Assembly (NCBI RefSeq): GCF_038561935.1
Contig: NZ_CP102770.1
Coordinates: 6,014,001-6,078,000 of the forward strand
Origin: Myxococcus stipitatus
GTDB taxonomy: Bacteria; Myxococcota; Myxococcia; Myxococcales; Myxococcaceae
Length of the DNA: 64,000 bases
Direction of reading: 5' to 3'
Shown: positions 40,053-64,000 of the stretch, piece after piece
Numbering within the stretch: position 1 is the stretch's first letter
How the letters are laid out: each line of letters starts with the position of its first letter
Position numbers and translations under genes: made by a program
The notes under the pieces: generated by a model
Databases searched by the model: none
What the model was told of the DNA's origin: nothing
The model's input: only the letters and a program-made list of their open reading frames with translations

Positions 40053-40086
40053 GTTCCCCCTCCTTTCATCGTGCGGCGTCTCGCGC

Positions 40087-44678: not shown

Positions 44679-44688
44679 CGCGTGCCCC

Positions 44689-45372: not shown

Positions 45373-45465
45373 CCTGTTGATGCCTCCACCCGTCGTGACG
45401 ACCGGGAGCCCCACCAGATGCATTGACAACCGGGTTGGTGGACAGCCCCCCGCCTCAACCCACTT

Positions 45466-46881: not shown

Positions 46882-47447
46882 CTGCGAACCTCGCTCGAGC
46901 GGGCCTCGACACGGTAGTCCTCGATGAGGAAGCGCATCGAAGCGTCACGCGCCGCGGTCTGCTTCGCCGGATCGCAGTCCTCTGGCTTCACCTGGGGCAG
47001 ACGCTCCACGGCCCGCCACACCTGTCCGGCGGGGCGTCTGAACACCCCCACCACGGCCAGGTAGCTCGCACCTGAAGTCCGACTGACTTCACGCGTCAAT
47101 TGCTGGCCTGGCTCGAGGGTGAACTCATCCATGGCCAGCAAGTCGTCCTCGAGCACTTCCTTGGGGCGCTGCCAGAGGTCCTGGAAGTCGGCGGCCTCCA
47201 TGCGGCGAGAGCCTTTGAGCTGGAAGACCTGGACGTTCGTCGGAAGCGAGCGGCCCACGTCATCCGCGTTGAGGCGTTTGCTCGCATCGAGATGCAGGAC
47301 AAAAGGAGGAGGCTGCTCGCAAGTCGTCGGCGCGGGAGGGGTGTGCGCGCACGCCCCAACGAGCAGACTCGAGAGCAGGACCGTACCCAGACAAGACCAG
47401 ACGCAACTCCGCGCCCGTGGGCCGAAGCCCCCCCCACAAACCGGCAT
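46878..47447 (-). CDS. tssJ: Type VI secretion outer-membrane lipoprotein TssJ
   Basis: 189 residues. The signal peptide ends in a lipobox (LLVGAC, C33). The mature part has FVLHLDASKRLNADDVGRSL and LPTNVQVFQLKGSRRMEAAD, typical of the TssJ beta-sandwich that contacts TssM. It is the first gene of the operon and translationally coupled to tssK, so the operon promoter should lie in the 194 bases upstream. Confidence 0.88.
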   Translation of the reverse strand: MPVCGGGFGPRARSCVWSCLGTVLLSSLLVGACAHTPPAPTTCEQPPPFVLHLDASKRLNADDVGRSLPTNVQVFQLKGSRRMEAADFQDLWQRPKEVLEDDLLAMDEFTLEPGQQLTREVSRTSGASYLAVVGVFRRPAGQVWRAVERLPQVKPEDCDPAKQTAARDASMRFLIEDYRVEARSSEVRR

Positions 47448-47641: not shown

Positions 47642-48607
47642 CTAGCCCTTGACAGCCACCAGGTCGTTGAGGATCGAAGGATCCAGAAACGTCTGCGTCT
47701 GGAGTGTTGGCACGGTGCGGCGCGCGAGCGAGGACACGACCTTGCTGTCGCCGACCTCCAGCACTCGCGTCACACCCAGGCTGGCGAGGTTCCTCACGCA
47801 CTGCATCCACAGGACGGGCGCGGTGAGCTGCTCCACCAGGGAGCGGCGGATGCAGACCAGTGTCTGGACTGGCCTCGCCGTGGTGCTGAGGATCACCGGG
47901 CATCGGGGCATGCGGAGCCGGAGCCGTGCGACCTCGGCCCGCCAGTCCTCGTGAATCTGGGCCATCAAGGGTGAGTGGAAGGCGTGGCTCACCTCCAGCA
48001 TCACGCAGTCCTTCGCGCCCGCGGCGAGCGCCAGGTCCTTGAACCGCTCCAGCGCTCGCACGTCTCCAGAGAGCACGAACTGCTGGGGGCTGTTGTGGAT
48101 GGCCACCACGGCCACGGCGTCCCGTGCGGCCTCCTGGCACAGCGCCTCCACGCGCGCCGCCTCCAAGCCCATGACGGCCACCATGCCACCCGGGGTCGTC
48201 ACGCTCGCCATGAGCTGTCCGCGCTTGCGCACCGCGCGGACCGCGTCGGCCAACGGCAGGCATCCCGCGGCCACCAGCGCCGAGAACTCTCCCACGCTGT
48301 GACCCACGACGATGGGCGGCTCCAGGCCCAGGTCACGGAGCTCCGCGAGGCACGCCGCGCTCGCCGTCACGATGGCGGGCTGCGCGTTCTCGGTCGCGGT
48401 CAAGGTCTCGAGCGGCCCTTCCAGACAGAGTCTCGCGAGGTCGACACCGATGGCCTCCGAGGCTTCCTCGAAGACGCGTCGAGCCGCGACGGAGCGCTCC
48501 AGCATCCGCCGCCCCATGCCGACCTTCTGCGAGCCCTGTCCGGGAAAGAGCCACGCCCAGCGGTCCCCTGCCCCACTCCTCCGCGATGTGTCGTCCATGG
48601 TGTCCAT
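47642..48607 (-). CDS. Discrete malonyl-type acyltransferase (trans-AT/FabD-like)
   Basis: 321 residues. Complete acyltransferase: FPGQGSQ, the active-site elbow GHSVGE, and the AFHS motif (SHAFHSPLM) usually linked with malonyl-CoA. It should load extender units onto a carrier protein in trans. It is the last gene of the biosynthetic operon, 33 bases after the condensation-like gene. Because the AT-like domain in the protein at 54155 lacks its serine, this is the only apparently active AT in the window. Met4 is a possible start. Confidence 0.88.
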   Translation of the reverse strand: MDTMDDTSRRSGAGDRWAWLFPGQGSQKVGMGRRMLERSVAARRVFEEASEAIGVDLARLCLEGPLETLTATENAQPAIVTASAACLAELRDLGLEPPIVVGHSVGEFSALVAAGCLPLADAVRAVRKRGQLMASVTTPGGMVAVMGLEAARVEALCQEAARDAVAVVAIHNSPQQFVLSGDVRALERFKDLALAAGAKDCVMLEVSHAFHSPLMAQIHEDWRAEVARLRLRMPRCPVILSTTARPVQTLVCIRRSLVEQLTAPVLWMQCVRNLASLGVTRVLEVGDSKVVSSLARRTVPTLQTQTFLDPSILNDLVAVKG

Positions 48608-48640: not shown

Positions 48641-50233
48641 TCAGCTCGCGACCGGCAGCACCCGAGGCGCGGAGGCCAGCTGCTCGACCTCGGCCAGCCA
48701 CCGGTCACCGAACTCGCGCACCGTCTCGTCGCGCATCGTCGGCGAGAGGTACTCGACCACGCCGTGCACCTCTCCACCGGAGTGGATGATGACGACGCCG
48801 ATGCAGGGGCGCCCCGTGAGGGAGCCACGGACGAGGACCCGCTCGGTGCGGACACCTTCCGGCAGGGCCAGCTCCTCGGGCTGGCGGATGGTGCTCACCA
48901 GCAGCGAGTAGTTGAACATGGACGGGTCCGCGTCGTTCTTGCGCAGCGCCGCCCGGAACATCCCCGGAGGCATCAGCGTCACCAGCCCCATGTTGACCAT
49001 GAAGCCCACGGACTCCTCGAGGACCCGCATGCTCCGGATGGACTCGGACAAGCGTCGCTCGAGACCGGGCGAGCGGATCTCCTCGGGGCGAGCCACGACT
49101 TGAAGCATCCCCAGGTAGTTGCCCAGGCCGGACGGAATCCCCAGCGCGGCGCGGAGGTTCGTCGGCACGAAGGCCCTGAAGCGCAGGTCCGGTGCACCGC
49201 GTGCCTGACGGAGTGAGTCGGCGGCGCGGAAGACGGCACCCACCAGCAAGTCATTGCGGCTCACGCCCTGCGCGGTGGAGACGGCCTTGAGGCGCTGCCA
49301 GGTCTCTGCCGGGATGCGGAGCAGGTGGTGCCGCGTGTGCGTGGGGCGCGCGGACGCGTCATCCGCGAGCACCGCCGAAGCCCCCTTGTCGGTGTCCCCC
49401 AAGGAGAAGTGCCGCCGCATCATCCGCAGCGTCCAGCCCAGTCCCCGAGGCCGCAGCTGGTCTCGCAAGCGCTGGCCTCCGTGCAGCGGAACACGAGCCG
49501 TGAGCGGCGCCCCCGCGCGCAGCTCGTTGTAGCGGCGCACGAGCAGGTCGAGCAGCAGGAGCCCCCCTTCCCCATCCACCGCGCTGTGATGGACGGTGAG
49601 ACAGAGGCGGAAGCCACCCTCGGGCCGAGGCGCGTGAATCACCCGCCATGGCGGCAGTCGACGCAGGTCCATGGGGGCATCCAGCGCGCGTGAGTCCTCC
49701 GCCTCGACGGGAAGCTCCGACCACGACAGCAGCCGAGTGGCATCCACCCACGGGCGCTTCGCCACGAACCGGAGGATGCCGAGCGGAGCCTCCCGCACGA
49801 ACGAGCGGGCCAGGGGCACCTCCTTCAGCACGGCGGACATCGCGCGCTCCAGCGGCTCACGCTCCAGCGGCGCGTCCACGTCCACGAAGTGGTGCGAGTT
49901 CATCCGCGTGCCGGGACCGTCTTGCAGATAGAAGTAGCGGTCCACGCCGTTCATGTTCAGCGCGTGGGACTCGGGCGCGAGCGGAATCACCAGCAGCGAT
50001 AACGCCGCCCCCACCAGCGGCAGCCCATCCGGCGACACGAGCAACAGCAGGCAGGAGACGATGGCCAGCTCCACCAGGAGCCCACGGCGAGGCACTCGCA
50101 GCAGGCTCAGCGCGCCCCAGGCCAGGCCCGGGAAGGCCCAGCCGCCCAGACGCCAGGAGAGCACACACAACAAGAGGCCGGCAGCGCGCGTCCCCCAGAT
50201 GAACGGCGGATGAGTCGAAGGTGTCGATGACAT
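48641..50233 (-). CDS. Membrane-anchored condensation/wax-ester-synthase-like acyltransferase
   Basis: 530 residues. The first about 90 residues contain three or four hydrophobic segments (e.g. GLLVELAIVSCLLLLVSP), so it is membrane bound. A soluble domain with the acyltransferase motif HHSAVDG (H215, H216, D220, G221) follows, with SRNDLLVGAVFRA and RAFVPTNLRAALGI as expected for the condensation / WS-DGAT superfamily. Members join an acyl thioester to an amine or alcohol. The membrane segment is uncommon in this superfamily. It lies 28 bases after the KS-KS-DH gene and probably releases or transfers the product onto a membrane-located acceptor; the acceptor is unknown. Confidence 0.75.
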   Translation of the reverse strand: MSSTPSTHPPFIWGTRAAGLLLCVLSWRLGGWAFPGLAWGALSLLRVPRRGLLVELAIVSCLLLLVSPDGLPLVGAALSLLVIPLAPESHALNMNGVDRYFYLQDGPGTRMNSHHFVDVDAPLEREPLERAMSAVLKEVPLARSFVREAPLGILRFVAKRPWVDATRLLSWSELPVEAEDSRALDAPMDLRRLPPWRVIHAPRPEGGFRLCLTVHHSAVDGEGGLLLLDLLVRRYNELRAGAPLTARVPLHGGQRLRDQLRPRGLGWTLRMMRRHFSLGDTDKGASAVLADDASARPTHTRHHLLRIPAETWQRLKAVSTAQGVSRNDLLVGAVFRAADSLRQARGAPDLRFRAFVPTNLRAALGIPSGLGNYLGMLQVVARPEEIRSPGLERRLSESIRSMRVLEESVGFMVNMGLVTLMPPGMFRAALRKNDADPSMFNYSLLVSTIRQPEELALPEGVRTERVLVRGSLTGRPCIGVVIIHSGGEVHGVVEYLSPTMRDETVREFGDRWLAEVEQLASAPRVLPVAS

Positions 50234-50261: not shown

Positions 50262-53200
50262 TCAGGCCCGCCCCTGCATTCCGTTCAGGCGACCATCGAT
50301 GATGTGTTTGAGCACGGGCCCCAGGTGCCCCAGGACGCTCAACCGGACTCCGTCGAGCTCGACGAAGACCTGCCGGGTCCGGGGATGGAAGGCCACCGCG
50401 CGAACTCTCGCGATGCCGTCCTGCGCGCCGAGGTAGGTGCTGTGGACCGCGACCTCTTCCCCCACGGGCAGCGGCGCATGCAGCCGCATGCGGTCCACTC
50501 CCTCCGGGAGGACCAGGGACTCGAGCGAGTAGTACGCGGTCATCCCCGCGGCGTGAGTGATGGCGTCCAGCGCCATCGGCCCCACGAGGAAGCGCGGGGA
50601 TGAGGTGAAGGAGAACAGGTCCTCCAGTCGCTCCTGCATCACCCACGCGGCCTGCTGTGTGGGCGACAGGACGCGCAGATGGCGACAGCCCTGCATCCGG
50701 GGCCCGAGATGGACACCCTCGCCCTGATTGTAGAGCGAGCGGAAATCCTGGCGACCCTCGGCCGAGCAGAGCGCCGCCGTCGCGGAGTCCACTCGCACGC
50801 GCTCCGGCTCGCGAAGCTCACGCCGCGCTTCGAGGACCACCGTCCCGGTGTGGAGCTTGCGGCGAACGGGGGGCATGTCCGCGCGGGGTCTCAGCTCCAT
50901 GTCCACCTGGAGCGCGACGCTCACGCGTCCCGCCGTGTCCGCCTTCCCGGCCCTCGCGGTGACGACCAGTCGCGTGGTCCGCCCCTCCCAGACCTTGGCC
51001 GCCTGGTGGAAGCGCACCCCTTCGAATCCCGTCACCGCGAGTCCGGGGCGGAGCAGCAGCGCCACCTCGGCCATCAGCTCCACACCAAAGGTGCCGGGGA
51101 GCACGGCGACCTCGTTGACCCGGTGCTCACAGAGGTAGCGGTCCGTCTCGAGGCTCAGCTCCCGCACCACGGTCAGCGTGTCCTCCGTGCGCTCCAACAC
51201 CGCTCCCACCATCGGGAAGGACGCGGGACTCAACACCGCGCCCTCTCCGCGCCGGACGTACTCCTCCACCACCACGTGGTAGTTGGTGCCGCCCATGCCG
51301 AACGCACTGAGGCCGGCTCGGCGAGGGCCTCCTCCAGCGGGCGCGGCCCAGGGCTTCGCCTCCGTGATGACCTCGAACGGCAGGGTGTCCCAGGCGATGT
51401 CCGGGTTCGGGCGCTCGAAGTTGATCTGCGGTGGAAGCACGCGGTGCTCCAGGCTCTTCAAGACCTTGATGAGGTTGATGACGCCGGCCGCCGAGTGCAG
51501 GTGACCAATCATCGACTTCACCGAGCCAATTCCCACCGAGCGCGGCGCGAGCCCGCGCATGACCTGCGAGTAGGTGGAGAGCTCCGTGAAGTCCCCCACG
51601 GGCGTCGCCGTGCCGTGGCACTCGATGTACTGGATGGACGTGGGCGCGACATCGGCGCGCTCCATCGCGCGACGCACCGCCAGCTCCTGGCCCACCGGGT
51701 TCGGCGCGAGCAGCGACTTGCCCTTTCCATCGCTCGATGACCCGACGCCCTTGATGACGCCCAGAATCGTGTCGCCATCCCGCTCCGCGTCCTTCAGGCG
51801 CTTGAGCACCACGACACCCGCGCCCTCGCCCGGGATGAACCCGGAGGCGTCCGCGTCGAAGGGACGGCTCCCGGAGCCGCTCACCCCTCGGAACGTGCAG
51901 TTGATGGCATACAGGTCGGGCTCCAGGTCCGAGAAGGCCCCACCCGCCAGCACGACATCCGAGAGCCCCAGCTGGAGGTTCTCCACGCCCGACTCGATGG
52001 CCGCGAGCGATGAGGCACAGGTGCTCTCGAAGATGCCCGTGGCGCCCTTGAAGCCATACACATGGGCGATGAGCGTGGCCTCCGAGCTGCCCGCGTAGCC
52101 CGCGTGGGTATAGGGCGTCATGGGCGCCATGCGCGCCTTGAAGTTCCCCTCGGCCGCGCGGGCGAGCTGGTCGGCCGTGTCAGGCGACAGCCCGTGCTCC
52201 TGGAGCACCCGCCGGAAGAGCGTGTCCATCTCGACATAGCTGATGCGCAGCTCGACCTGCCGCTCACGCAGACGCCCGGGCATGTCCGCCATGAAGACGG
52301 ACGTCCGCAGCGGAGCCTTCTGCGGCGCGGTCGTCTTGCGCAGCGCCTCCGCCGCGGCCGTCAGCGCGAAGAGGTGCGACCGGTCCAACTGGGCCGCCAG
52401 GGTCGGAGGAATGAGGAAGGACTTCTCGTCGAACTGGAAGCCCTCGATGAACCCTCCGAGCGGGCAGTAGATCTTCCCCATCTCCCCCTCGGGGCCGAGA
52501 TAGCGGTCGATGTCGAAGCGGTCCTTGGGCACGCGGATGATGTGGTTCTTCTTCGCCAGCACGTTCTCGTAGAACGTGTCGCTGTCCATCGCGCCAGGCG
52601 CGAGGACGCCGTAGGACACCACGGCGACGGGCTCTCGCTTCGGCGCGGGCCCCAGCGTCGCGACCAGCCGTGCGTGGTACTCCGGAACGAACTCCTCCAG
52701 CGTGAGGTGGTAGGCCTGTCCCCCCATCGCCAGCGAGTTCACCCCCGCGCGGCGAGGTGTCCCGTCCGCTGGGGCCTTCCACTGCGCGGGCTCGGCGAGG
52801 AGCCGGAAGGGCGAGCCCTGCGCACGCAGCTCCTCGCGCGGCTGCCGAACATGCCCTTGGGCCGGGAGCGTCTGATGCTTCAAGGCCATCAGCGTGCGCA
52901 CGAGCCCCGGCATCGTCGACGCCGACAGCAGATAGCCGACCATGTTCTTCGTCGAGCCGATGGTCAGGCTTCGCGGCGCGTGCCCCGAGAACACCTTCTG
53001 CATCGCCGTGATTTCGGACGCCTCGAGGAACTCCACCCCGTTGGCGTGGCACTCCAGGTACTGCACCGTCTCCGGGGAGTATCCCGCGAGCTCGTACGCA
53101 CGCTGCGCCGCCCGGACCTGCGCATCCAGGGGTGGGCTGATCAACGCGCCTCGACGCCCGTCGTTCGCGCCGCTGATGCCTCGGATGACGCCGAGGATGG

Positions 53201-54113
53201 AGTCGCCTTGCTTCAGCGCGTCCTCCAAGCGCCGCAGCACGAAGAAGCCCGTGCCCTCTCCCAGGAGCGTCCCGTCCGCGTCGGCATCGAAGGGACGGGG
53301 TTGGGCATCGCGCGTCAGCAGCCGCATCCGCTCGAAGGTGACGAAGGGCGCGGGCGTCAGGTAGGGGCTGGTGCCGCCCACCAGCGCGACATCGTAGTCC
53401 CCCAGCGTGAGCCCGTTGACCGCGCACTCCAGAGCAGAGAGCACGGACGAGCACGCCGAGTTCACGACGAAGTGCGGCCCCTTCAGGTCGAACAAGGAAC
53501 AGGCCCGCCCCAGGGACAGGCTCATGCCGGAGACGTTGCCTCGGGTGAACTCTCGATGGCAGACCTCGTGGAACGCGCGCTCCGCGGCCTCCAGGATGCG
53601 GCGCCGGGCCTCCTCCGGAAGCCCCGAGCCCTCCATCGCCGCCTCGACCGCCGCCGTCAGCTTGGGCCGGTGCCAGAGGAAGGGGTGGATGACGCGCGGG
53701 TCGTAGCCCATCTCCGAGCCACCCATGATGACGGCGGTGCGCTCACGGGGAAACGGCCGCTCCAGCAGGCGCGCATCCGCGAGGGCCCGGCGAATCGCCT
53801 CCACCGTGTACAGCTCACAGCGGTGGAGCTCGTCGAGCATCTTCGGCCCGACCTTGTACTCCCGCCAGGGCAGCTCCAGGTCGTTGAAGAACGACGCCCG
53901 CCACACCTCGCCCTTCTCCGTGTCGGAGGAGTCCTTGCTGTAGAAGCTCTCCCACCGGAAGCGCGACGAAGGCACCTGCGCGAACCGAGGCGTCCCTTCC
54001 GTGATGTAGCGCCAGAGCTGCTCCGGCGTTTCGGCGCCCGCCACCAGGCATGAAGCGCCGATGATGGCGATGGGCGTGGACGTTCGGGTCGCTGACTGGG
54101 TTTCCGTCGTCAT
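50262..54113 (-). CDS. Tandem ketosynthase-dehydratase megasynthase (KS*-KS-DH)
   Basis: 1283 residues. KS1 (about 10-470) keeps the cysteine (C221, NSACSSV) and one histidine (ECHANG) but its second histidine is tyrosine (Y394, MVGYLL), so decarboxylation and condensation are probably impaired. KS2 (about 490-930) has C699 (STCASS), ECHGTA and MIGHLH intact. The C-terminal dehydratase (about 960-1270) has H997 in HRVNEVAVLP, with Glu where Gly is usual, and its Asp at D1183 (LDAITH). KS2 resembles PUFA/heterocyst-glycolipid-type iterative synthases more than modular PKS. No carrier protein, AT or reductase is present. It lies 41 bases after the next upstream megasynthase. Confidence 0.85.
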   Translation of the reverse strand: MTTETQSATRTSTPIAIIGASCLVAGAETPEQLWRYITEGTPRFAQVPSSRFRWESFYSKDSSDTEKGEVWRASFFNDLELPWREYKVGPKMLDELHRCELYTVEAIRRALADARLLERPFPRERTAVIMGGSEMGYDPRVIHPFLWHRPKLTAAVEAAMEGSGLPEEARRRILEAAERAFHEVCHREFTRGNVSGMSLSLGRACSLFDLKGPHFVVNSACSSVLSALECAVNGLTLGDYDVALVGGTSPYLTPAPFVTFERMRLLTRDAQPRPFDADADGTLLGEGTGFFVLRRLEDALKQGDSILGVIRGISGANDGRRGALISPPLDAQVRAAQRAYELAGYSPETVQYLECHANGVEFLEASEITAMQKVFSGHAPRSLTIGSTKNMVGYLLSASTMPGLVRTLMALKHQTLPAQGHVRQPREELRAQGSPFRLLAEPAQWKAPADGTPRRAGVNSLAMGGQAYHLTLEEFVPEYHARLVATLGPAPKREPVAVVSYGVLAPGAMDSDTFYENVLAKKNHIIRVPKDRFDIDRYLGPEGEMGKIYCPLGGFIEGFQFDEKSFLIPPTLAAQLDRSHLFALTAAAEALRKTTAPQKAPLRTSVFMADMPGRLRERQVELRISYVEMDTLFRRVLQEHGLSPDTADQLARAAEGNFKARMAPMTPYTHAGYAGSSEATLIAHVYGFKGATGIFESTCASSLAAIESGVENLQLGLSDVVLAGGAFSDLEPDLYAINCTFRGVSGSGSRPFDADASGFIPGEGAGVVVLKRLKDAERDGDTILGVIKGVGSSSDGKGKSLLAPNPVGQELAVRRAMERADVAPTSIQYIECHGTATPVGDFTELSTYSQVMRGLAPRSVGIGSVKSMIGHLHSAAGVINLIKVLKSLEHRVLPPQINFERPNPDIAWDTLPFEVITEAKPWAAPAGGGPRRAGLSAFGMGGTNYHVVVEEYVRRGEGAVLSPASFPMVGAVLERTEDTLTVVRELSLETDRYLCEHRVNEVAVLPGTFGVELMAEVALLLRPGLAVTGFEGVRFHQAAKVWEGRTTRLVVTARAGKADTAGRVSVALQVDMELRPRADMPPVRRKLHTGTVVLEARRELREPERVRVDSATAALCSAEGRQDFRSLYNQGEGVHLGPRMQGCRHLRVLSPTQQAAWVMQERLEDLFSFTSSPRFLVGPMALDAITHAAGMTAYYSLESLVLPEGVDRMRLHAPLPVGEEVAVHSTYLGAQDGIARVRAVAFHPRTRQVFVELDGVRLSVLGHLGPVLKHIIDGRLNGMQGRA

Positions 54114-54154
54114 CTCACATGCTCGTCATGAAAAGTGCTTCCAGACGGGAGCGC

Positions 54155-57100
54155 TCAAGCGCGCTCGGCGGATGGCAGCAACCGGTGAACGTCACTGAAG
54201 GCCCACAAGCGCTGGAACCGCTCGACCTCGCTCGCTCCAGCGGGATGCCGGGCATGCACCACCTGCGCGGAGATGCCGGGCATGGAGTCGAGACAGGCGG
54301 CCAGCGCATCGCCGGAACCCGCCTCGAGGAACACCCGCACGCCGTCGTCGTACAGGCGGCGCACATGCTGCTGGAACCGCGTGGGCTGCGCGTCCAGCAG
54401 GGCGAGATGACGCGCGAGGAAGCCCTCTTGGAGAGAAGGCTCGTAGTAGCGGCCATGCACGGCGGACAGGACCGCCACCTCTGGTGAGCCCCAGGCGAGC
54501 CTCACCAGTCCCTCGCGGAGGATCCGCAGCGCGCTCGCTCCTGGAATCGCGGGAACCTGACCGGCCTGAGGCTGTCCCCGGGACCGCAGGGACAACGCCT
54601 GCACCGCGTCGGTCAGCGAGAGCATTCCACTCGCGACGAGCGCGCTGTACTCCCCTGTCCCCTCGCCCAACAGGATGTCGACGCGAAGCCCGCGTGCGCG
54701 CATCAGCCGGTAGTACGCGACGCCGGAGACGACCTCCGCCACGTCACTCTCGAGTCCCTCTCGCGGGGCCGTGACTTCCTCGAAGGCCGACGCCGCCTCT
54801 TCGAGCGTGTCGCGCACCTCGGGGTACCGCGCCGCGAGCGCCTGGAGGTCATCCGCCGGAGACGCGCCTCGACTCGGGAAGACCCAGGCCACCTTCTGCT
54901 CATGCAGGCGGCGCGAATCCCTGGCGTCGTAGAAGTAGAGCCCCTGCTCGCGCAGCACCGACTCGGAGGCTCCGGCCAGCGAATCCCGCGCACGCGTCAA
55001 CGCCCGCTGGGCCGCCACGCCCGAGGGCAACGCCACGGCGAAGCGGCAAGGAGCGCTCACGTCATCGGGAGACCTCGGCGCGCGCCGCCGCTCGCGCAGG
55101 AGGTGCTCGACCTTCGAGAGCACCTCGCCCCTCGCCGCCCCGTGCAGGCTCAGCACCGACGCGGGCGGTACGTGCTCCTCCACGACCGCGTGGAAGCTGG
55201 TGCCTCCCAAGCCCAGGGAGGTGACACCCGCGCGGCGGACGCCCTGTTCCTGGGGCTCCCAGCGCTCGGGCGCGGTGGGCACCCGGAAGGGCAGCTCATG
55301 CCAGGGAATGGCCGGGTTGGGCGTCGCGAAGGTCGCATTGGGCGGCACCTTCCCGTGGTGCAGGGCCAGCGCGACCTTCAGCAGCGACGCGGCCCCCGCC
55401 CCGGAGTTCAGATGCCCCAGGTTCGACTTGATGGAGCCGAGGAGCACCTGCCGCCCCTCTCGGCCGCACCCGAACACCGCGCGATACGTCTCCACCTCGA
55501 CGGGGTCCCCCACCGGGGTTCCCGTGCCGTGCCCCTCCAGATACTGGATGTCCTCCGGCGAGACGCCCGCCTTCGCCACGGCCCCGCGCACCGCCTGGGC
55601 CTGCCCCTCGGAGGACGGCGCCCAGATGGATGCACTCTTCGGGTCCGTCGCGCCGGCGACCGCGCGAATCACCGCGTAGACGCGGTCGCCCGCGGCCTCC
55701 GCATCCGAGAGCCGCTTGAGCGCGAGCATCGCCGCGCCCTCGCTCGTCACATAGCCATCCGCCCGCGCATCGAAGGGGAAGGAGCCGTTCTGAGACAGCC
55801 CTCCGAACGAGCACCACTGCGTCATCGCGTCCACGCCCAGCGTCGCGTACATGCCTCCCGCGAGCACCAGGTCGCATTCACGCGTGTGCAGGAAGTGGGC
55901 GGCGATATCCACGGCCGCCAGGCTGGAGGCACACGCGGACTCGACCATCATCGCTGGACCCTGGAAGTCCAGATGATGCGCGACACGCGCCGCCGCGAGG
56001 CTGCCGAGGTAACCGGGCAGCGTCTGTGCGTCGATGGGAGGCAGCTCTCGCTTGTACTCCGCCTCCACCTCGTCGCGGATGCGCCGCGCCTCCGCCTCGT
56101 CGATGCCCCGCTTCCGCAGCTGCGCCGCGAGCCGTCCGTCGAACTCCGCGTAATACACCCGCGCCTGCGTCAGGAACTCGCGCTCCAGCGGCGGCATGTA
56201 GCCCATGGCGATGCCGATGCGCCGCGCGTCCACACGCCCAGGGGAGTGCCCGGCATCGTCGAGCGCCTGCAACGCGGCGCGCATCGTCCAGCTCTGGCCC
56301 CGGTCTGTCCGCGCCGCGACCTCGGAGGGGACGCGGATGCGGTCCTCTGGCCAGCTTCCATCGACGACGTAGCCCGCGAGGTTCGTGTAGGGCCGGGTCT
56401 TGCTCTTGCGCGTCGGGTCCAGATAGCGCGACGTCTCCGCCCGCTCGGGAGGAATGGCGCCGATGGCGCTGCGCTTCTCCAACAGGTTGTCCCAGAGCTG
56501 CTCGACATCCCTCGCGCCCGGAAAGACACCTCCCAATCCCACGATGGCGATGGGCTCCGGGGGACGCGGTGGCCGCAAGGTCGCCGCGAGTCGTGCGTGC
56601 TCGGCCTTGGAGAATTCCTCGAGCGTCAGGTGATAGTTCAGCCCGCCCATCCCGAACGCACTGACGGAGGCCCGCCGAGCCCCCGCCTTCACCGCGGGCC
56701 AGGGCATCAGCTCCTTCGAGCCGTGGAACGGCGCGGTGCTCAGGTCCTGGCGCTCCGCGCTGTGTCTTGGCGGAAGCAACTTGTGGAACAGCGCCAGGGA
56801 GGTCTTCAGCAGGCCCGCCGCTCCCGAGGCCGCCTGGAGGTGCCCCGTCAGCTCCTTCACCGCGCCCAGCACTACGCGCGACGACGACGCCTCTTCGCCC
56901 CAGAGCGCTCGCAGGCTCGCGAGCTCGGTCGCGTCCTCCTCGGGGATTCCCGAGCCGTGGCACTCGACGTACTGCACGTCCCGAGGCCCATAGCCCGCAT
57001 GCGCATAGGCCTCGCGCATGGCTCGGAGCTGACCTGTCGTGCTCGGGGCCAGGAGGGAGGAGCTCGCGCCATCGGAGGCCACGCCGATGCCTCGGATGAC

Positions 57101-58003
57101 CGCGTAGACCTTCGCGCCCGAAGCCACCGCATCCTCCAGGCGGCGCAGGACGAACACGCCGACCCCTTCCCCCAGGAGCGTTCCGCTCGACTGGGGGTCG
57201 AACGGCGCCAGCACGGACGACGTTCCCAGCACCCCATGCTTGCTGAACGCGACCAGGTCATGCGGCGTCAGCAGCTGGCTGCAACCCGCCGCGAGCACCA
57301 CGTCACAGTTCCCGGAGTTGAGCTGCTGACTCGCGCTCTGGATGGCCGCGAGCGAGGACGCATGTCCCGCGTCCACCGTGAAGTGAGCCCCGCGCAGGTC
57401 GAAGAGCTTGGCGACCCGTCCCGCCCAGATGCTGCTGAACGAGGCGGTGGCCTCGGTCTCACTCGTTCCCGGCAGCTCCGCCTGGAGCTGCGAGGTGAGC
57501 GCCTCCGCCAGCTCGGCCGCCAGTCCCGGATGACGCGAGGTCAGCGACTCCGATGCGGACAGCGAGCGCAGCATGTCCACGAGCCGCGTGTGGACTCGGC
57601 ACCCAGGGCGCAGTCCTCCTCCCGAGGAGCCCATCACCAGACCGACCCGCTCCGGCGGCACGCCCAGCATGCCGCCCCGGGCATCATCGAGCGCCTGTGA
57701 GGTGGCGTCGATGAACGCAATCTGCATCCGGTGCATGTCCCGCAGGACCTTGGGCGGAATGAGGTACTTCCACGCGTCCAGCACCAGCTCGTCCACGAGC
57801 GCGCCGTGTCGACACTGCGTGCGGTCGGGCGTGGCCGGCGCGGCGTCGTAGTACCAGTCCGAGCGGAACTCCCGCTCGTTCAGCAAGCCCAGCGCGGAGC
57901 CCCCCTGCGTGACGCGCGACCAGAACGCCTCCACGCTGTTCGACTTGGGGAAGACACAGCCCATGCCCACGATGGCCACGGGACGGAAGCGCACCGGACT
58001 CAT
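54155..58003 (-). CDS. Tandem ketosynthase with degenerate acyltransferase (KS*-KS-AT*)
   Basis: 1282 residues from ATG 58003, which overlaps the stop of the upstream dehydratase (ATGA). KS1 (about 5-460) has His at the active-site position (H214, DAGHASS), while ECHGSG and LTGHLQ keep both histidines. KS2 (about 480-930) is intact: C691 (ESACASS), H825 (EGHGTGT), NLGHLN. The C-terminal region follows the AT fold (VAWVFP..., ending VRVFLEAGSGDALA), but GHSxGE has become GEGTGE (1113-1118) and the GQGSQ strand motif is lost, so it cannot form an acyl-serine. It may be structural or may dock the trans-AT. Confidence 0.85.
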   Translation of the reverse strand: MSPVRFRPVAIVGMGCVFPKSNSVEAFWSRVTQGGSALGLLNEREFRSDWYYDAAPATPDRTQCRHGALVDELVLDAWKYLIPPKVLRDMHRMQIAFIDATSQALDDARGGMLGVPPERVGLVMGSSGGGLRPGCRVHTRLVDMLRSLSASESLTSRHPGLAAELAEALTSQLQAELPGTSETEATASFSSIWAGRVAKLFDLRGAHFTVDAGHASSLAAIQSASQQLNSGNCDVVLAAGCSQLLTPHDLVAFSKHGVLGTSSVLAPFDPQSSGTLLGEGVGVFVLRRLEDAVASGAKVYAVIRGIGVASDGASSSLLAPSTTGQLRAMREAYAHAGYGPRDVQYVECHGSGIPEEDATELASLRALWGEEASSSRVVLGAVKELTGHLQAASGAAGLLKTSLALFHKLLPPRHSAERQDLSTAPFHGSKELMPWPAVKAGARRASVSAFGMGGLNYHLTLEEFSKAEHARLAATLRPPRPPEPIAIVGLGGVFPGARDVEQLWDNLLEKRSAIGAIPPERAETSRYLDPTRKSKTRPYTNLAGYVVDGSWPEDRIRVPSEVAARTDRGQSWTMRAALQALDDAGHSPGRVDARRIGIAMGYMPPLEREFLTQARVYYAEFDGRLAAQLRKRGIDEAEARRIRDEVEAEYKRELPPIDAQTLPGYLGSLAAARVAHHLDFQGPAMMVESACASSLAAVDIAAHFLHTRECDLVLAGGMYATLGVDAMTQWCSFGGLSQNGSFPFDARADGYVTSEGAAMLALKRLSDAEAAGDRVYAVIRAVAGATDPKSASIWAPSSEGQAQAVRGAVAKAGVSPEDIQYLEGHGTGTPVGDPVEVETYRAVFGCGREGRQVLLGSIKSNLGHLNSGAGAASLLKVALALHHGKVPPNATFATPNPAIPWHELPFRVPTAPERWEPQEQGVRRAGVTSLGLGGTSFHAVVEEHVPPASVLSLHGAARGEVLSKVEHLLRERRRAPRSPDDVSAPCRFAVALPSGVAAQRALTRARDSLAGASESVLREQGLYFYDARDSRRLHEQKVAWVFPSRGASPADDLQALAARYPEVRDTLEEAASAFEEVTAPREGLESDVAEVVSGVAYYRLMRARGLRVDILLGEGTGEYSALVASGMLSLTDAVQALSLRSRGQPQAGQVPAIPGASALRILREGLVRLAWGSPEVAVLSAVHGRYYEPSLQEGFLARHLALLDAQPTRFQQHVRRLYDDGVRVFLEAGSGDALAACLDSMPGISAQVVHARHPAGASEVERFQRLWAFSDVHRLLPSAERA

Positions 58004-58854
58004 GGGACCTCCCGCACGGTGAACCCGTGGAAGAGCGCCACCAACCGTCCGTCCATGTCCCACGAGACGACATGGAAGGTCAGCCGTCCTTCCCGCGCCT
58101 CCATCATCCGCGCGAACACCTGGACCTCTCCGGAGGGAATCGAGTGCAGCTCGGCGGAGGCCAGCTCCAGCGGGAGGACGGTCCGCTCGCGGGCGAGCAC
58201 CCCCAACGAGAAGCCGACATGAAGGATGGCGTTGAGCAGCGACGCGGGCCAGCCGAGCTCATCCGCCTCCAACTTCCACCCGCTCGCCGAGCACGCTGGC
58301 GGCGCGACGATGGCGAGGAGCTGCTGGGGCGCCGGCTGCCGATACCGCCGTCCCGCGAGGAACGAGGGCCCGTGGTGAATCTCGCGCGGCAGCCGATACA
58401 GCTCCGCGTAGTCCGCCGCGCCGGAGAAGTCCAAGCACTGGAATCGCGAGGCCTGCGCGACACGCGCCCCCATCCGCACGTTCCCGCGCGCATGGGTCCT
58501 GTGGATGCGCGGGAAGCCCTCGCGAGGGGGAGCCATGCTCGAGGAGATGCCCACGGTGACGTGCCGCGGATCCGAGCACTCCGCCGTGACAGCGAACTCG
58601 AGGGCCCGTGTGTCCTTGAAGTGGGCCGCCTGCACGAAGCTCACGTCCCGGACACCGAGCACCTGGTGGTCGGGCAGCACCCGCTGCGCCGCCTGGGTCA
58701 TCAAGCCCACCAGGTACGCGGCGGGAAACACCGGCTTGCCCTCCACGACGTGGTCCAGGAGGTACGGGTCCGAGCGGAGGTCCACGCCGCGCTCGAAGCG
58801 CCAGCTCCCATCACACGCCACCACCTGCCCCAGCGAGGGTCCGCTCCGCGTCAT
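58000..58854 (-). CDS. Stand-alone dehydratase-like (hot-dog) protein
   Basis: 284 residues from ATG 58854, overlapping the PPTase stop by four bases (ATGA), so translationally coupled. The double hot-dog dehydratase pattern starts with HVVEGKPVFP (H35) as in PKS/PUFA dehydratases. The partner Asp of the second hot-dog is Asn here (N208, LLNAILH). Wild-type enzymes use the His/Asp pair to eliminate water, so activity could be reduced, or the protein may be a product-template or isomerase-like variant. The function is inferred from fold and neighbours. Confidence 0.78.
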   Translation of the reverse strand: MTRSGPSLGQVVACDGSWRFERGVDLRSDPYLLDHVVEGKPVFPAAYLVGLMTQAAQRVLPDHQVLGVRDVSFVQAAHFKDTRALEFAVTAECSDPRHVTVGISSSMAPPREGFPRIHRTHARGNVRMGARVAQASRFQCLDFSGAADYAELYRLPREIHHGPSFLAGRRYRQPAPQQLLAIVAPPACSASGWKLEADELGWPASLLNAILHVGFSLGVLARERTVLPLELASAELHSIPSGEVQVFARMMEAREGRLTFHVVSWDMDGRLVALFHGFTVREVP

Positions 58855-59711
58855 CGCGAGGCCTCCCTCAGCGCGGGCCGTCGTGACTCCACGCTCCACG
58901 GATGCACCTCGCGTGCGTCGTGAAGGACCGCGAGCGCGTACCCCTGCCCCAGCACGAGCAGTCCCGTGACACCCGCGTCCGGAGCACCTGGCACCTTCAG
59001 GTGGACGAGCCTGACGAACGCATCGACCCCCTCCGTCAGCGGCGCCACGTGGACCTGGCGGTCGCGCGTCACCGTCCAGCCGTCGAACGTCACCTGCTGA
59101 AGCGCGGCGCGAAGCCCCTGCCCCGAGCACTTCACCAGCGCTTCCTTGAGACACCACCCCAGGCTCGACAGCTCATCGAGCGTCCGCCCCTCCACTCTCG
59201 CCTGCTGCTCGAGCCAGGCCCGCTCCCCCTCCGTGAAGGCTTCCTCCTGAAACGCGGCGGACCGGGGCGCCACACGCTCCAGGTCCACCCCCACGCGTCC
59301 ACCACTCGCCACCACCGCCAGCGCGAGCCCGTGTGAATGTGAAATCGAGACATCGCAGGCCGGCACGCCCGCCGGGAGCTGCGCCACCGGGCGCCCTTCC
59401 TGGGGCCCCGCCATCATCTGGGTGAGCCCCAGCTCGCGGGCCTCCAGGAAGAACCCTTGTCCTCGCAGGTGCGAGAGCAGCGCGAGCTTCGCGGCGATGC
59501 GGCCGGACAGATGGGCCAGCCGCCGCTCCAGCACGACATGCATTCCGCTCGCGGCGATCTCCGCCGGGGTCAGTACCCGCGAGATGGGGCCATCGGGTTG
59601 GAGGGGCCAGGCTCGACGCACGGAGGACACCGGCACCACCGCCACGGTGATGCGCTGCCCTCCTGGCAGACCGACCTTCACCACCTCCACGCTGAAGTCA
59701 GGGGGATTCAC
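58851..59711 (-). CDS. 4'-phosphopantetheinyl transferase (Sfp type)
   Basis: 286 residues from GTG 59711; ATG 59762 and 59756 are alternatives that overlap the previous gene by about 60 bases. Sfp-type motifs are present: SISHSHGLALAVVA, GVDLERV for Mg2+, and WCLKEALVKCSGQG. It attaches the phosphopantetheine arm to a carrier protein. As none is encoded in the window, its substrate presumably lies further upstream in the operon, beyond position 64000. Its position between KS genes indicates dedication to this pathway. Confidence 0.85.
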   Translation of the reverse strand: MNPPDFSVEVVKVGLPGGQRITVAVVPVSSVRRAWPLQPDGPISRVLTPAEIAASGMHVVLERRLAHLSGRIAAKLALLSHLRGQGFFLEARELGLTQMMAGPQEGRPVAQLPAGVPACDVSISHSHGLALAVVASGGRVGVDLERVAPRSAAFQEEAFTEGERAWLEQQARVEGRTLDELSSLGWCLKEALVKCSGQGLRAALQQVTFDGWTVTRDRQVHVAPLTEGVDAFVRLVHLKVPGAPDAGVTGLLVLGQGYALAVLHDAREVHPWSVESRRPALREASR

Positions 59712-62562
59712 GGTGCTCTTCGAGGATGAGGTGGTAGTTGGTTCCGCCAAAGCCATACGCATTCACGGCCGCGCGCCGAGGGCCGTCGTCGACCCGCCAG
59801 GGACGGGCTTCGCGCGGGAAGACCAGGGGGCCCTCACAGGCCACCAGGCGCGGGTTCAACGGAGACTCGTTGAAGCTCGACGGGAGGACCCCACGCTGGA
59901 GCGCGAGCACCGTCCGAAGGACCCCCGCCCCCGCTGACGCGATGTAGGAATGGCCAATCAGCGGCTTGAGCGCTCCGAGAGACACGGGGCGCTCGGGTCG
60001 TCCGTAGACTCCCAGCAGAGCCTCCGCCTCGGGGAGGTCTCCCTCCAGCATTCCGCTGCCGTGGGCTTCGACGTACTGGATGTCCGTGGGCTCGACGCCG
60101 CCATCCCGGAGCGCGCGCCGCATGGCCAGCTCCTGCCCTCGCGCCTGGCTCGCGAAGATGGATTTGCCGCGCCCATCCGTCGACCCACCCACGCCCCGAA
60201 TCACCGCGTGAATCCGGTCTCCGTCCTTCATGGCGTCCGAGCGCCGCTTCAGCACGAAGACGGCGCAGCCCTCCCCATGGACGAAGCCATCCGCGTCCGT
60301 GGTGAATGGCCGGGTCACGCCCTTCGACGAGATGGTCTCGACGAAGCACATGCTCACGCAGAACGGAGCCGTGATGCTCGACCACACGCCGCCCACCACC
60401 GCCACGTCCCAGCGTCCGTCACGCAGTCCCTGGGCCGCCAGGCTCAGCGCCGCGAGCGTCGAGGCACACGCGGACTCCACCGTGAAGGCAGGCCCGCGGG
60501 CATCCAGTGCACGCGCCACGCGCGTCGCGGGGGCACTGTTGAGGATGCCCGGAAGCGTCTGCGCCGAGACGGCGGGCGTCCCTCCCTGGAAGGACTGGCG
60601 AGCCTCCGTGATGAAGCGCTCCGCCGCCTCGCCCGATATCCCCACCCGGCCCAGCACCTGACGATAGAGGCTGGCGAGCTCGGGGTAGGCCAGCCGCGTC
60701 TCGACCTGGGTCTCCCGGTCGTTTCCCGGCGACGTGGCCACGATGACCGCCGTGCGGTCCGACGGAAGCGCACGACGCGCTCCATAGCCCGCGTCGTCCA
60801 TCGCCACCTTCGCGACCTCCAGGGTCCAGCGCTGCGACCGGTCCATCTCCGCCACCGCGCTGGGCGGGAGTCCGAATTCCGGCGGGAGAACGGGGGCATC
60901 CGGGACCTGTCCCGCCTTGGGGGTGTACACCCGGAAGAAGGCGTCCCGGCCGCTCCCTCGCGCTCGCGTGGCATCGTGGTAGAGCGACACCGGCCAGCGA
61001 GACTCGGGGATGTCCGTCACCGCGCCGCGCCCCTGGAGGCTGTTCTCCCAGAGGGCCTCCGGCGTGGACGCGCCTGGGTACTTGCAGGCGAACCCGACGA
61101 TGGCGATGGGGTCCACCTCCGAGGCTCGCGGCGCGCGCTTCACCCCGGAGGGCCGAGGCGCCTCCGGCAGGTACTCCTCCACCACCGCATGCGCCGAGGC
61201 GCCGCCAAAGCCCGCGGAATGGACCGCCGCGTATCGGGGTCCTTGTGAGGGCCAGTCCTTCCGCGTGCTGACTTCGAACGGCGTGTCCTTCAGCACGAGG
61301 TCCGGGTGGCACGTCTGGAAGGAGCGCTGAGGCACGAGGCTGCGCTCGCGGAGCATCAGGACGACCTTGAGCAGCGCCGCGAGCCCCGAGGCGGTCTGCA
61401 AGTCCCCCACCGACTCCGCGACGGCCCCCAGCGACACGTGCCGGGCTTCGCGATACGCCCCGCCCAGTCCCGTGACGAGGTGACCATCCCAGGCGGGCAC
61501 GCCTGTCGCCCCCGTCTCCAGATAGGAGACCGAGGCGACCGGGACATCCGCGCGGCGCAAGGCCTCTCGCGCGGCGTGGTGATGGGCTCGCGGGTCCGTC
61601 CCCGACAGCGCGGGGCCCGCCCCCCGGTTCACCCCCGCCACTCCGCGCAGCACCGCTTGAATGGGGTCACCATCCCTGCGCGCGGCCTCCAGCGGCTTGA
61701 GCACCAGCATCACCGCGCCCTCGCCCAGCGCGGTGCCGTCCGCCCTCGCATCCAGCGGGAACACGCCTCGCGTCGAGAGCCGCCGCAGCTTGCCGTGCAG
61801 CACCTGGTCCATCGGCGACAAGGCGGGACTCGCCGCGCCCACCAGCGCCATGTCCCACTCACCGCTCATCAGTCCCTGGACCGCCGACTCCAGCGCGGCC
61901 AGCCCTGAAGCGGCGTGCGCATCCACACAGAAGTGCGGACCATGCAGGTCGAACAGGCTGCACACGCGCCCCAGCACCGGGCTCGTGAAGCCCCAGAAGG
62001 CCCAGTCCTCCGAGCGGTCGATGTGCTGCTGGACGAGCTCCGACTCGAGCTCTCGGGTGACCTGCTCCGCCTGCGCCGGGGTGAGCTGACTCCACGCCGG
62101 AGCCGACCGCGCCGCGCGCAGCAGTTCCGGGAGGCGCCACTTCGTGTTGAACCCCACGTTGCTCTTGCGCCCCATGCCGCTGGAGCCGGCAATCACCGCG
62201 ACGCGCTCTCTCGCGAAGGTCCGCTCGGGGGTGTAGCCCGCGCTCGTCATCGCCTGGAAGGCGGCTTCGAGCACCATCATCTCCATCGAGTGCAGCAGCC
62301 GCGTCTCGATGGGCGGAACCTTGAACTTCTTCCAGTCGAAGCGCAGCCCCTCGACGGGCGCGCCGAGGAACGAGTACGTCCGGTCCACCGCGCCCGGGTC
62401 GTCGCTGCCGTACTGGCTCCAGTCCCAGCGCGCGCCGGACAGCGGGCGCACGGCCACGTGCCCGGACTGGAGGTTGCGCCAATAGGTCGGCACGTCGGGC
62501 GCGTCCGGCAGGACACATCCCGTCCCGATGATGGCGATGGGCTCCTGGCGAAGACTACCCAT
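59698..62562 (-). CDS. Tandem ketosynthase with fully inactive first domain (KS0-KS)
   Basis: 954 residues, no other domain. KS1 (about 5-460) has lost every catalytic residue: Cys to Ala217 (DAHAASG), first His to Gly351 (ETGATG), Lys to Ala382 and second His to Asp387 (AESVGDLQ). KS2 (about 490-940) is complete: C699 (ESACAST), EAHGSG, LIGHSY. The combination recalls KS-chain-length-factor pairs, but with the inactive partner first. It overlaps the stop of the upstream C45-DH gene by eight bases and the start of the PPTase gene by 14. Confidence 0.85.
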   Translation of the reverse strand: MGSLRQEPIAIIGTGCVLPDAPDVPTYWRNLQSGHVAVRPLSGARWDWSQYGSDDPGAVDRTYSFLGAPVEGLRFDWKKFKVPPIETRLLHSMEMMVLEAAFQAMTSAGYTPERTFARERVAVIAGSSGMGRKSNVGFNTKWRLPELLRAARSAPAWSQLTPAQAEQVTRELESELVQQHIDRSEDWAFWGFTSPVLGRVCSLFDLHGPHFCVDAHAASGLAALESAVQGLMSGEWDMALVGAASPALSPMDQVLHGKLRRLSTRGVFPLDARADGTALGEGAVMLVLKPLEAARRDGDPIQAVLRGVAGVNRGAGPALSGTDPRAHHHAAREALRRADVPVASVSYLETGATGVPAWDGHLVTGLGGAYREARHVSLGAVAESVGDLQTASGLAALLKVVLMLRERSLVPQRSFQTCHPDLVLKDTPFEVSTRKDWPSQGPRYAAVHSAGFGGASAHAVVEEYLPEAPRPSGVKRAPRASEVDPIAIVGFACKYPGASTPEALWENSLQGRGAVTDIPESRWPVSLYHDATRARGSGRDAFFRVYTPKAGQVPDAPVLPPEFGLPPSAVAEMDRSQRWTLEVAKVAMDDAGYGARRALPSDRTAVIVATSPGNDRETQVETRLAYPELASLYRQVLGRVGISGEAAERFITEARQSFQGGTPAVSAQTLPGILNSAPATRVARALDARGPAFTVESACASTLAALSLAAQGLRDGRWDVAVVGGVWSSITAPFCVSMCFVETISSKGVTRPFTTDADGFVHGEGCAVFVLKRRSDAMKDGDRIHAVIRGVGGSTDGRGKSIFASQARGQELAMRRALRDGGVEPTDIQYVEAHGSGMLEGDLPEAEALLGVYGRPERPVSLGALKPLIGHSYIASAGAGVLRTVLALQRGVLPSSFNESPLNPRLVACEGPLVFPREARPWRVDDGPRRAAVNAYGFGGTNYHLILEEHRESP

Positions 62563-64000
62563 GGGCGCGCCTCTCGAAGACTCTCGGATGGAGGACCCCG
62601 GACGGGTCCAGGGCGGTGCTCAGGTACGCCTTCTGTTCTGGCGAATAGGCATCCACGCTGATGGAGCAGTAGTCGTGGGCCTCCAGACAGACGTTCCCCT
62701 CCGCGTCCCAGAGGGTGAAGTCGTAGAAGAGGAGCTCGCCCACCTCGCGATCGAGCCGCGCGAGACACCACAGTCGCTCACCGGGCCTCGGCGTCCGGCC
62801 CAGCACCAGCCGGTGGGCCCCCTTCGGAACAGGGGCCCGGAGGTTGTGCAGGATGCCCAGCGTCCCCGCGAGCTGGAAGCAGCCATCGAGGACGAAGGGG
62901 TTGAGCCAGAAGCGCGCCCAGGGAATCGACGTGAAACACGACGTCGGCTCGGGGATGCGCAGGCTCGCGACGGCTTCCGTCGCGTGGGGATAGCTGATCC
63001 AATCCACGATGCGGAACGGAGGCCCCACGTGGAAGTAGGCGTCTTTCACGTAGGAGCGGCTGAAGGGCAGCTCCCCGTCCACACCGCGGGCCTCACCGAA
63101 GCCCTTGGGAACCTTCCTCGGCGGACGCGTGCCCAGGTGCACCTCCGCGCGGTAGTGCAGCACGTCCGAGCGCAGCACCGCGCCTCGGGGGTTATGCAGG
63201 TCCGAGTACGCGGAGACCTCGAAGCCCTCTCGCGTGCGCGCGGCACGGACACAGGCCTGCGTCGGGCGCTCGGGGCGGACGCGGATGAACTTCTCCAGTG
63301 AAACACCGCGCACCTCGCGGACGGCATCCCCGCCGGCGACGGCCGCGACCTCGGCGAGCCACTCGATGGCCGAGGCTCCCGGCAACACGGGGACGCCGTT
63401 GACCCGATGCTCGGTGAGGTAGGCGTCCTCATCGAGCGCGAACATGCGCACCCAGCAGTCCGGCTCGCGCTCCGTTCCCTGCATGGGGAACGAGCCTCGC
63501 TCCTCTTCGTCCACCCGCGCGGGCGCATCGAAGAACCAGGGCGCGAGCTGAATCCGCCGACGCGGAGCCCGTGCGGCCGGAACACTCCCCGCCGCGAAGT
63601 CCAGGGTCAACGTCGCGGGCTCGTAGACCATGCTCAAGGCGTTGTCCGCCCGGCAGATGGTCTTCATCGACGGTGGTGCCCCCTCCTCGCCACAGTCGCG
63701 CAGGAAGTCCACCGCGGTGTCCAGCGTGATGCCGCCCCAGTGCCCTTGGGCGAGCTGCTCCAACCGCCGGTAGCGATGCAGGGAGTCCTCCTGCATGTCC
63801 TGCAACATCTCCAGCGCCACGGCCTCATGTCCTCGCGCCGCCTTGTGCGCGACCCGGAGGTGGTTGGTGGAGACGATGAAGTCCTGCTCCGGATGCGCCG
63901 TGTACTGCCCTGAGTTCCGCCCCACCTGCTCCCAGACCATCGACGCCCCGGAGCGGTGGCTCAGCATGAGGTTCCAGCTCCCGCCGCGCGGAAGTCCCTC
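62555..64000 (-). CDS. C45-type acyltransferase/hydrolase domain fused to dehydratase, N-terminus beyond window
   Basis: The frame is open through the window edge (no stop from 63967 to 64000), so the true start lies outside. Numbering from the first in-window Met (63967): residues 1 to about 130 match the C-terminal part of C45/isopenicillin N-acyltransferase-like Ntn hydrolases (STNHL, SLHRYRRLEQL, TICRADNALSMVYEPATL, ending in a Gly-rich strand), and the catalytic Cys would be upstream. A Pro/Arg-rich linker leads to a dehydratase (about 160-460) with H187 (HRVNGVPVLP) and D361 (LDGCFQ), both intact. First gene of the visible part of the operon. Confidence 0.68.
   Translation of the reverse strand, partial: EGLPRGGSWNLMLSHRSGASMVWEQVGRNSGQYTAHPEQDFIVSTNHLRVAHKAARGHEAVALEMLQDMQEDSLHRYRRLEQLAQGHWGGITLDTAVDFLRDCGEEGAPPSMKTICRADNALSMVYEPATLTLDFAAGSVPAARAPRRRIQLAPWFFDAPARVDEEERGSFPMQGTEREPDCWVRMFALDEDAYLTEHRVNGVPVLPGASAIEWLAEVAAVAGGDAVREVRGVSLEKFIRVRPERPTQACVRAARTREGFEVSAYSDLHNPRGAVLRSDVLHYRAEVHLGTRPPRKVPKGFGEARGVDGELPFSRSYVKDAYFHVGPPFRIVDWISYPHATEAVASLRIPEPTSCFTSIPWARFWLNPFVLDGCFQLAGTLGILHNLRAPVPKGAHRLVLGRTPRPGERLWCLARLDREVGELLFYDFTLWDAEGNVCLEAHDYCSISVDAYSPEQKAYLSTALDPSGVLHPRVFERRAHG

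Follow-up and report, generated by a model that had tools for sequence, protein, structure and literature searches.

The tandem ketosynthase (KS) proteins encoded in this stretch of Myxococcus stipitatus DNA are a real and conserved variant, reversed in order, of the KS-chain-length-factor (KS-CLF) idea in an orphan lipid-type synthase. Each carries two directly adjacent KSs without a carrier in between, the first of which (KS1) has a defective active site while the second (KS2) is intact. KS1 was defective in 39/39 pairs from 11 orthologous clusters and KS2 kept C-H-K-H in all 39, so this dead-live state is not a matter of chance. The catalytic positions C-H-K-H were read from an alignment in which the intact KS2 of the upstream paralogue A served as ruler. 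Of the 13 genomes with protein C at E=0, 11 enter the residue table. In the remaining two the cluster sits on short contigs; Corallococcus terminator (L071) is one of these and was read separately, while the other (G024) was left out. An earlier note on this DNA had claimed two KSs per protein with active-site positions 221/699 (H), 214/691 (G) and 217/699 (D), the first KS damaged and the second intact. All of this holds, the positions of G being counted from the ATG at 58003 (234/711 from an upstream GTG, 54155-58063), and none of the 39 KS1s is catalytically normal. Beyond that note, a fourth tandem KS protein, A, lies upstream, and G ends in an acyltransferase (AT) remnant.

The window, that is the whole stretch analysed (64,000 nucleotides, G000:C1:6014001-6078000), belongs to a 10.17-Mb genome. 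The synthase cluster extends past it, with A, B and C beginning upstream, and in transcription order it reads A-B-C-D-E-F-G-H-I-J (Table 1). Its gene content fits a synthase, with AT, carriers and ketoreductase (KR) in A and B and a phosphopantetheinyl transferase (PPTase) and dehydratases (DHs) in the D-H region. No enoyl reductase (ER) was found among the Pfam matches of A-J, and TIGR02814 (PfaD family) had no match at E<=1e-150 in the genome itself.

Table 1 Features of the synthase cluster. Positions are those of the window unless prefixed by locus L002.
Feature	Position	Strand	Content and basis
A	L002:6114-10370	-	KS1-KS2-AT; upstream of window; KS1 Y-H-K-H, KS2 intact
B	L002:2638-6117		Four carrier domains with readable motif, and KR; upstream of window; Pfam, motifs
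C (714 aa)	62555..64000 (full span L002:555-2699)	-	N-terminal C45/AAT-type Ntn acyltransferase-like domain, then PKS-type dehydratase double hotdog; start outside window, upstream, at L002:2699; Pfam PF03417, PF21089, PF14765
D (954 aa)	59698..62562	-	KS1-KS2 and nothing else
D KS1	61150..62550	-	Inactive, A-G-A-D; alignment residues
D KS2	59701..61119	-	Intact, C-H-K-H; alignment residues
E	58851..59762	-	4'-phosphopantetheinyl transferase; Pfam PF01648; motifs GVDLE, KEALVK
F	58000..58854	-	Dehydratase double hotdog; Pfam PF21089, PF14765; start codon inferred
G	54155..58003	-	KS1-KS2-dead AT remnant; paralogue of A
G KS1	56591..57991	-	Inactive, H-H-K-H; alignment residues
G KS2	55154..56563	-	Intact, C-H-K-H; alignment residues
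G AT remnant	54476..54895	-	Catalytic Ser replaced by Gly; 6/6 genomes with G
H (1283 aa)	50262..54113	-	KS1-KS2-dehydratase
H KS1	52668..54083	-	Inactive, C-H-K-Y; alignment residues
H KS2	51237..52640	-	Intact, C-H-K-H; alignment residues
I	48641..50233	-	PapA/condensation-like acyltransferase; Pfam matches below curated cut-off
J	47642..48607	-	Free-standing acyltransferase, GHSVGE

Among the 96 genomes of the family, C was matched at E=0 in 13, and four more had weak DH matches only. A, D and H were tandem KS proteins in 11/11 clusters read. G is close to A and occurs only in the genus of the window (6/11 clusters); as the catalytic Ser of its AT remnant is Gly in every one of the six, KS2 alone looks live among the recognised domains of G. 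Within the stretches fetched, I is present in 5/10 other clusters, all of the same genus as the window, and residues 1-202 of J were matched in 10/10, upstream of A in five of these. Carrier motifs that could be read in B number three to five per cluster across the 11 clusters. The Ntn domain of C, with a GCS motif, is C45/penicillin-acyltransferase-like and fused to the PKS dehydratase; it could free the product as an amide or acid. Genes of type VI secretion (TssJ, VasE, IcmF and ImpA/VasJ families; four proteins scanned) lie directly downstream, at window positions 38400-47447, and are not part of the synthase cluster.

Each paralogue has its own form of the defective site. KS1 of A reads Y-H-K-H and that of D A-G-(A or S)-D in 11/11 genomes each, and KS1 of H reads C-H-K-Y in nine and S-H-K-E in two, the latter also in L071. 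In G the first residue is H in three, N in one and Y in two of the six genomes, with H-K-H kept in all. Across all KS1s read, including those of the related systems described below, the Cys position holds Y, F, H, N, A, S, T, I or C and never Q, and the KS1s of D, H and Z do not keep both histidines.

Public genomes were scanned with an alignment of the carrier-KR protein B, built from 8 of the 11 B proteins; the best 80 matches represent 79 loci and include relatives in many phyla. After removal of weak single matches and of KS pieces below 250 aa, the 79 loci gave 46 readable adjacent KS pairs, 37 of them live-dead and nine dead-live, with no live-live or dead-dead pair among the 46. The nine come from four loci among the matches listed, namely those of Corallococcus terminator (L071), Archangium lansinium (L100) and two Ectobacillus species (L117, L118). 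Outside these four, 37/37 readable pairs among the matches listed were live-dead, in agreement with the claim of the earlier note that the order is reversed relative to Pfa-type systems. Another 19 two-KS proteins in related loci, among the matches listed, had KSs that were not adjacent. The genome of the window itself also holds, at G000:C1:7604000-7608000 (L069), a C-H-K-H KS followed by a degenerate KS-like domain (A-A-V-R), which is the usual live-dead order.

Archangium, Ectobacillus and four more genomes contain a compact two-protein system, X and Z, in which X is KS1(Y or F)-KS2-AT-carriers and Z is KS1(dead)-KS2-KR-DH. The layout was read in 4 of 10 Archangium-type genomes, in G108 and in the two Ectobacillus genomes, from Pfam domains for L100 and L118 and from motifs for the rest. 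All 14 distinct X/Z-type pairs were dead-live (16 rows were read, L173 and L100 being one genome), as were 3/3 pairs of L071. Together these make 17 dead-live pairs beyond the 39, spread over eight other genomes, two of them Ectobacillus (Bacillota). A strong KS1 match (at least 673 bits) was found in 23/195 genomes of the phylum, namely all 13 that have C, plus 10 belonging to two further genera (6/6 and 4/4 genomes searched). G108, with 532 bits, is also tandem; 22 genomes had KS1 matches below 500 bits, which may be ordinary Pfa-type or related KSs. With a KS1 profile at E<=1e-150, the sample of 398 Bacillota genomes yielded one match, the Ectobacillus genome at the centre of the sample, and the family of Ectobacillus yielded 2/19. 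At the same threshold, samples run without a positive control gave 0/398 for the phylum of Shewanella and 0/194 for the cyanobacterial phylum. A plasmid search with Ectobacillus X returned two matches, each covering 54% of the query, from KS2 onward.

The phylogeny of the two halves does not support one element of the earlier note, the independent degeneration of KS1 in three paralogues. In a first tree (5/11 cluster genomes), which included Pfa, modular and FabF-like KSs, KS1s formed one group (ultrafast bootstrap/SH-aLRT 98/92) and KS2s another (99/95). Both groups recurred (SH-aLRT 99 and 97) in a second tree with Archangium, Ectobacillus, G007 and G108 added (3/11 clusters and 5/8 X/Z loci, L071 left out). 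This split into two clades places the origin of the pair before that of its paralogues. Long-branch warnings apply to the grouping of D with H KS1 in the first tree and of L170 Z with L117/L118 Z in the second, for which the over-long L170 Z KS1 was trimmed to 445 residues and the L117 Z and L118 Z KS1s extend into the start of KS2. Parsimony with equal weights, on a tree from which the active-site columns had been left out, required one Cys change among the KS1 rows and three over all rows, and two changes each at H1, K and H2 among the KS1 rows. One Cys change is therefore enough, and the cheapest account would be a single early loss with Cys later in H. Together with the two clades, this single change makes it probable that an ancestral pair, already dead-live, gave rise to the others by duplication and that the inactive slot diversified afterwards. 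A DAG-x motif in 29/31 distinct A, G, X and Z KS1s (exceptions L118 X, DSG, and L170 Z, DCG) would fit an inherited dead site; at this position D KS1 has DAH and H KS1 NSA or NAA. As KS1 of H keeps its Cys, separate losses may have occurred instead.

KS2 falls outside the PfaC-KS group in the second tree, and these KSs group apart from those modular PKS KSs of the same genome that were included. Holding KS1 and Pfa CLF as one clade gave a p-AU of 0.571, so a joint clade is not rejected. We regard it as possible, and somewhat short of probable, that the dead-live pair represents a separate KS heterodimer lineage in which KS1 did not come from a Pfa CLF. Such a pair would have been transmitted whole and multiplied into three or four versions, each tuned differently, around a single carrier array, and would be common to Myxococcota and Bacillota.

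Purifying selection acts on KS1 with about the same strength as on KS2. The dN/dS values range over 0.035-0.289 for KS1 and 0.045-0.242 for KS2, and in 25 comparisons from seven genome pairs KS1 was lower in 11, higher in 12 and tied in two. G is the exception, with KS1 above KS2 in 4/4 comparisons. AlphaFold2 gave both halves of the didomain a full KS fold for D (pLDDT 89.4, pTM 0.93) and H (pLDDT 90.8, pTM 0.94), and a KS1-KS2 pseudo-dimer within one chain is predicted for both. Foldseek aligned D and H with the PfaC KS-CLF structure 6RIW over 975 and 971 columns, gaps included, which is almost the full length of the didomains, with a TM of 0.79 by query and 0.82 by target and an rmsd of 4.7 and 4.2. 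6RIW ranked first for D and third for H and is, for these models, the best match sharing a common KS-KS arrangement; the bimodule 7ZSK was matched over both KSs with a TM of 0.40-0.41 and an rmsd of about 48-49. As Foldseek aligns in sequence order, the superposition matches dead KS1 to the live KS of PfaC, and live KS2 to the CLF. Of the 23 rows in the AlphaFold alignment, 11 came from Pfa-type KS-CLF pairs and could have biased the models towards this arrangement, so the superposition on 6RIW is support and not proof. VIA-align had no 6RIW row among the 50 matches listed, its matches being mainly to the KS2 half. Both the similar constraint on the two halves and the predicted superposition are in line with the suggestion of the earlier note that KS1 is a maintained non-catalytic partner. 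For this partner the note named chain-length control or gating as possible tasks.

The reading that we favour, and consider probable, is a Pfa-like synthase with single-chain KS/partner pseudo-heterodimers, reversed in order, three to four of them around one carrier array. The cluster genes would form an iterative, Pfa-like 'secondary lipid' synthase with each tandem KS protein as a single-chain pseudo-heterodimer. KS2 would carry out condensation and KS1, as a maintained non-catalytic partner, would fill the other half of the KS dimer, so that the pair would work like a KS-CLF didomain with its chain order reversed. One carrier array and one KR would serve the three pairs of A, D and H and, in the genus of the window, a fourth, that of the duplicate G, the DHs of C, F and H removing water and the ATs of A and J loading malonate. 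Different pairs may act at different chain lengths or stages, as PfaA-KS and PfaC-KS-CLF do; from this analogy we infer the division of labour, and the roles of single enzymes, the substrate and the product are likewise inferred.

Certain features speak against a pure partner role. His-Lys-His is kept in 17/17 A and G KS1s and 7/7 distinct X KS1s, a triad that a structural partner would not need; KS1 of H retains Cys, His and Lys in 9/11 genomes; and KS1 of G is less constrained than its KS2. Perhaps, then, the KS1s of the A/G/X type decarboxylate malonyl-carrier to an acetyl starter, much like KSQ domains, and only those of D, H and Z are pure partners. The kept triad, an aromatic residue at the Cys position in 18/18 A and X KS1s (Y 16, F 2) and an intact AT motif in A (11/11 genomes) and X (6/7 distinct proteins, none being found in L170) would suit such a role. 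The available text of PMC12895367 likewise has Moritella PfaA-KS forming acetyl-ACP by decarboxylation. However, the Gln of KSQ is missing, the occurrence of Phe (two genomes) and, in G, of His or Asn indicates that no single side chain is needed, and the KS1s of D and Z sit at the same place without the triad. On balance we find this unlikely, though it deserves more weight than the alternatives that follow, and a priming role of A/X KS1 is plausible and could coexist with a partner role.

If KS1 instead had some other catalytic role with an altered triad, such as acyl holding or transfer on the Cys of H KS1, the C-H-K-Y of 9/11 genomes would be its trace. We think this improbable, as the same domain is S-H-K-E in the two other genomes and L071 and D KS1 lacks all four residues in 11/11. 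Decay into functionless pseudodomains would match the lost catalytic residues and the somewhat weaker constraint on G KS1, but a KS1 dN/dS well below 1 and similar to that of KS2, the complete fold in the high-confidence models of D and H, and retention in both Myxococcota and Bacillota make it barely credible. We give equally little credence to ordinary modular PKS genes with non-elongating KSs, the case that the earlier note had set against its own reading. Type I KS, AT, ACP, KR and DH content would be expected of them, whereas modular PKSs have one KS per module with its own carrier, and here adjacent KS pairs have no carrier in between, the carriers are gathered in one tandem array, and the KSs do not group with the included modular KSs of the same genome.

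The carriers have a peculiarity of their own. Phosphopantetheine is normally held by a carrier Ser, and in B every readable carrier motif has Thr (GIDT or GVDT) at this site in 11/11 clusters. Among the matches listed, 75 related loci had a readable motif, of which 33 had Thr only, 40 Ser only and none both, and the carrier sites numbered S 160, T 107, A 1 and W 1; the Thr loci include Chloroflexi, Elusimicrobia and archaeal MAGs. Every dead-live system with readable carriers has Thr. No description of Thr carriers was found in the available text of open-licence PMC papers.

The role of a dead KS beside a live one in iterative synthases, and its bearing on chain length, are a standing question. 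Found here in reverse, several times within a cluster and across two phyla, the same pairing offers a natural comparison, and features kept in both orders should show what the partner is for. The dead-live pairs also mark a conserved myxobacterial synthase. The earlier note knew of no described system of this kind, and likewise no description of a dead-live KS arrangement was found in open-licence PMC papers, those on KSQ/KSY domains included. The available text of PMC12224551 and PMC8174602 does not name this cluster. PMC12224551, a preprint on conserved myxobacterial clusters, does mention in its available part an uncharacterised type 1 PKS cluster that Archangium shares with Melittangium; it might be identical with the compact X/Z system.

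In KSQ decarboxylases the active Cys is replaced by Gln and the His pair kept. The KSQ loading domains of GfsA (8IN9) and pikromycin (7UWR), both among the VIA-align matches, share the replaced Cys and kept His pair with the KS1s of A, G and X alone, but differ in that the residue here is Tyr, Phe, His or Asn rather than Gln and the domain is fused to a second, live KS. In the available text of PMC12895367, PfaB of gammaproteobacterial PUFA synthases has one domain that is inactive for lack of the Cys-His-His triad, a feature in common with the present case. We take it to be a pseudo-KS; unlike KS1 it is not known to adjoin a live KS. According to the same text, in Moritella PfaA-KS starts the chain and PfaC-KS-CLF performs the final elongation.

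The available part of Shulse and Allen 2011 (PMC3098273) takes a minimum of one KS, one ACP and one KR, the ACPs being in tandem, to define a secondary lipid synthase, and KS, KR and tandem carriers are present here. Those clusters share KS, tandem carriers, KR, DH, AT and PPTase with ours; here no PfaD-type ER was found. In the available text of that paper KS-CLF layouts have the KS first, HglC being KS-CLF-AT, and no layout places a CLF-like domain before the KS. A 2026 survey of hybrid Pfa-like clusters (PMC13291983) also treats, in its available text, the second KS of a PfaC-like protein as CLF. Among the matches listed, the dead half of live-dead pairs mostly has Glu at the Cys position (the Lys-position letters of Pfa CLFs vary between alignments), in contrast to the Y, F, A, T, I, H, N, S or C of KS1. 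Type II KS/CLF systems such as those of actinorhodin (1TQY) and ishigamide (6KXF) combine catalytic and non-catalytic KS folds in separate proteins; the pairing is the same here, but the two are fused and the partner comes first. PfaC KS-CLF (6RIW) also has two adjacent KS folds per chain, one catalytic and one not, in what is predicted to be the same pseudo-dimer, and our proteins differ from it by having the dead half first, by their three to four copies per cluster and by a KS2 outside the PfaC-KS clade.
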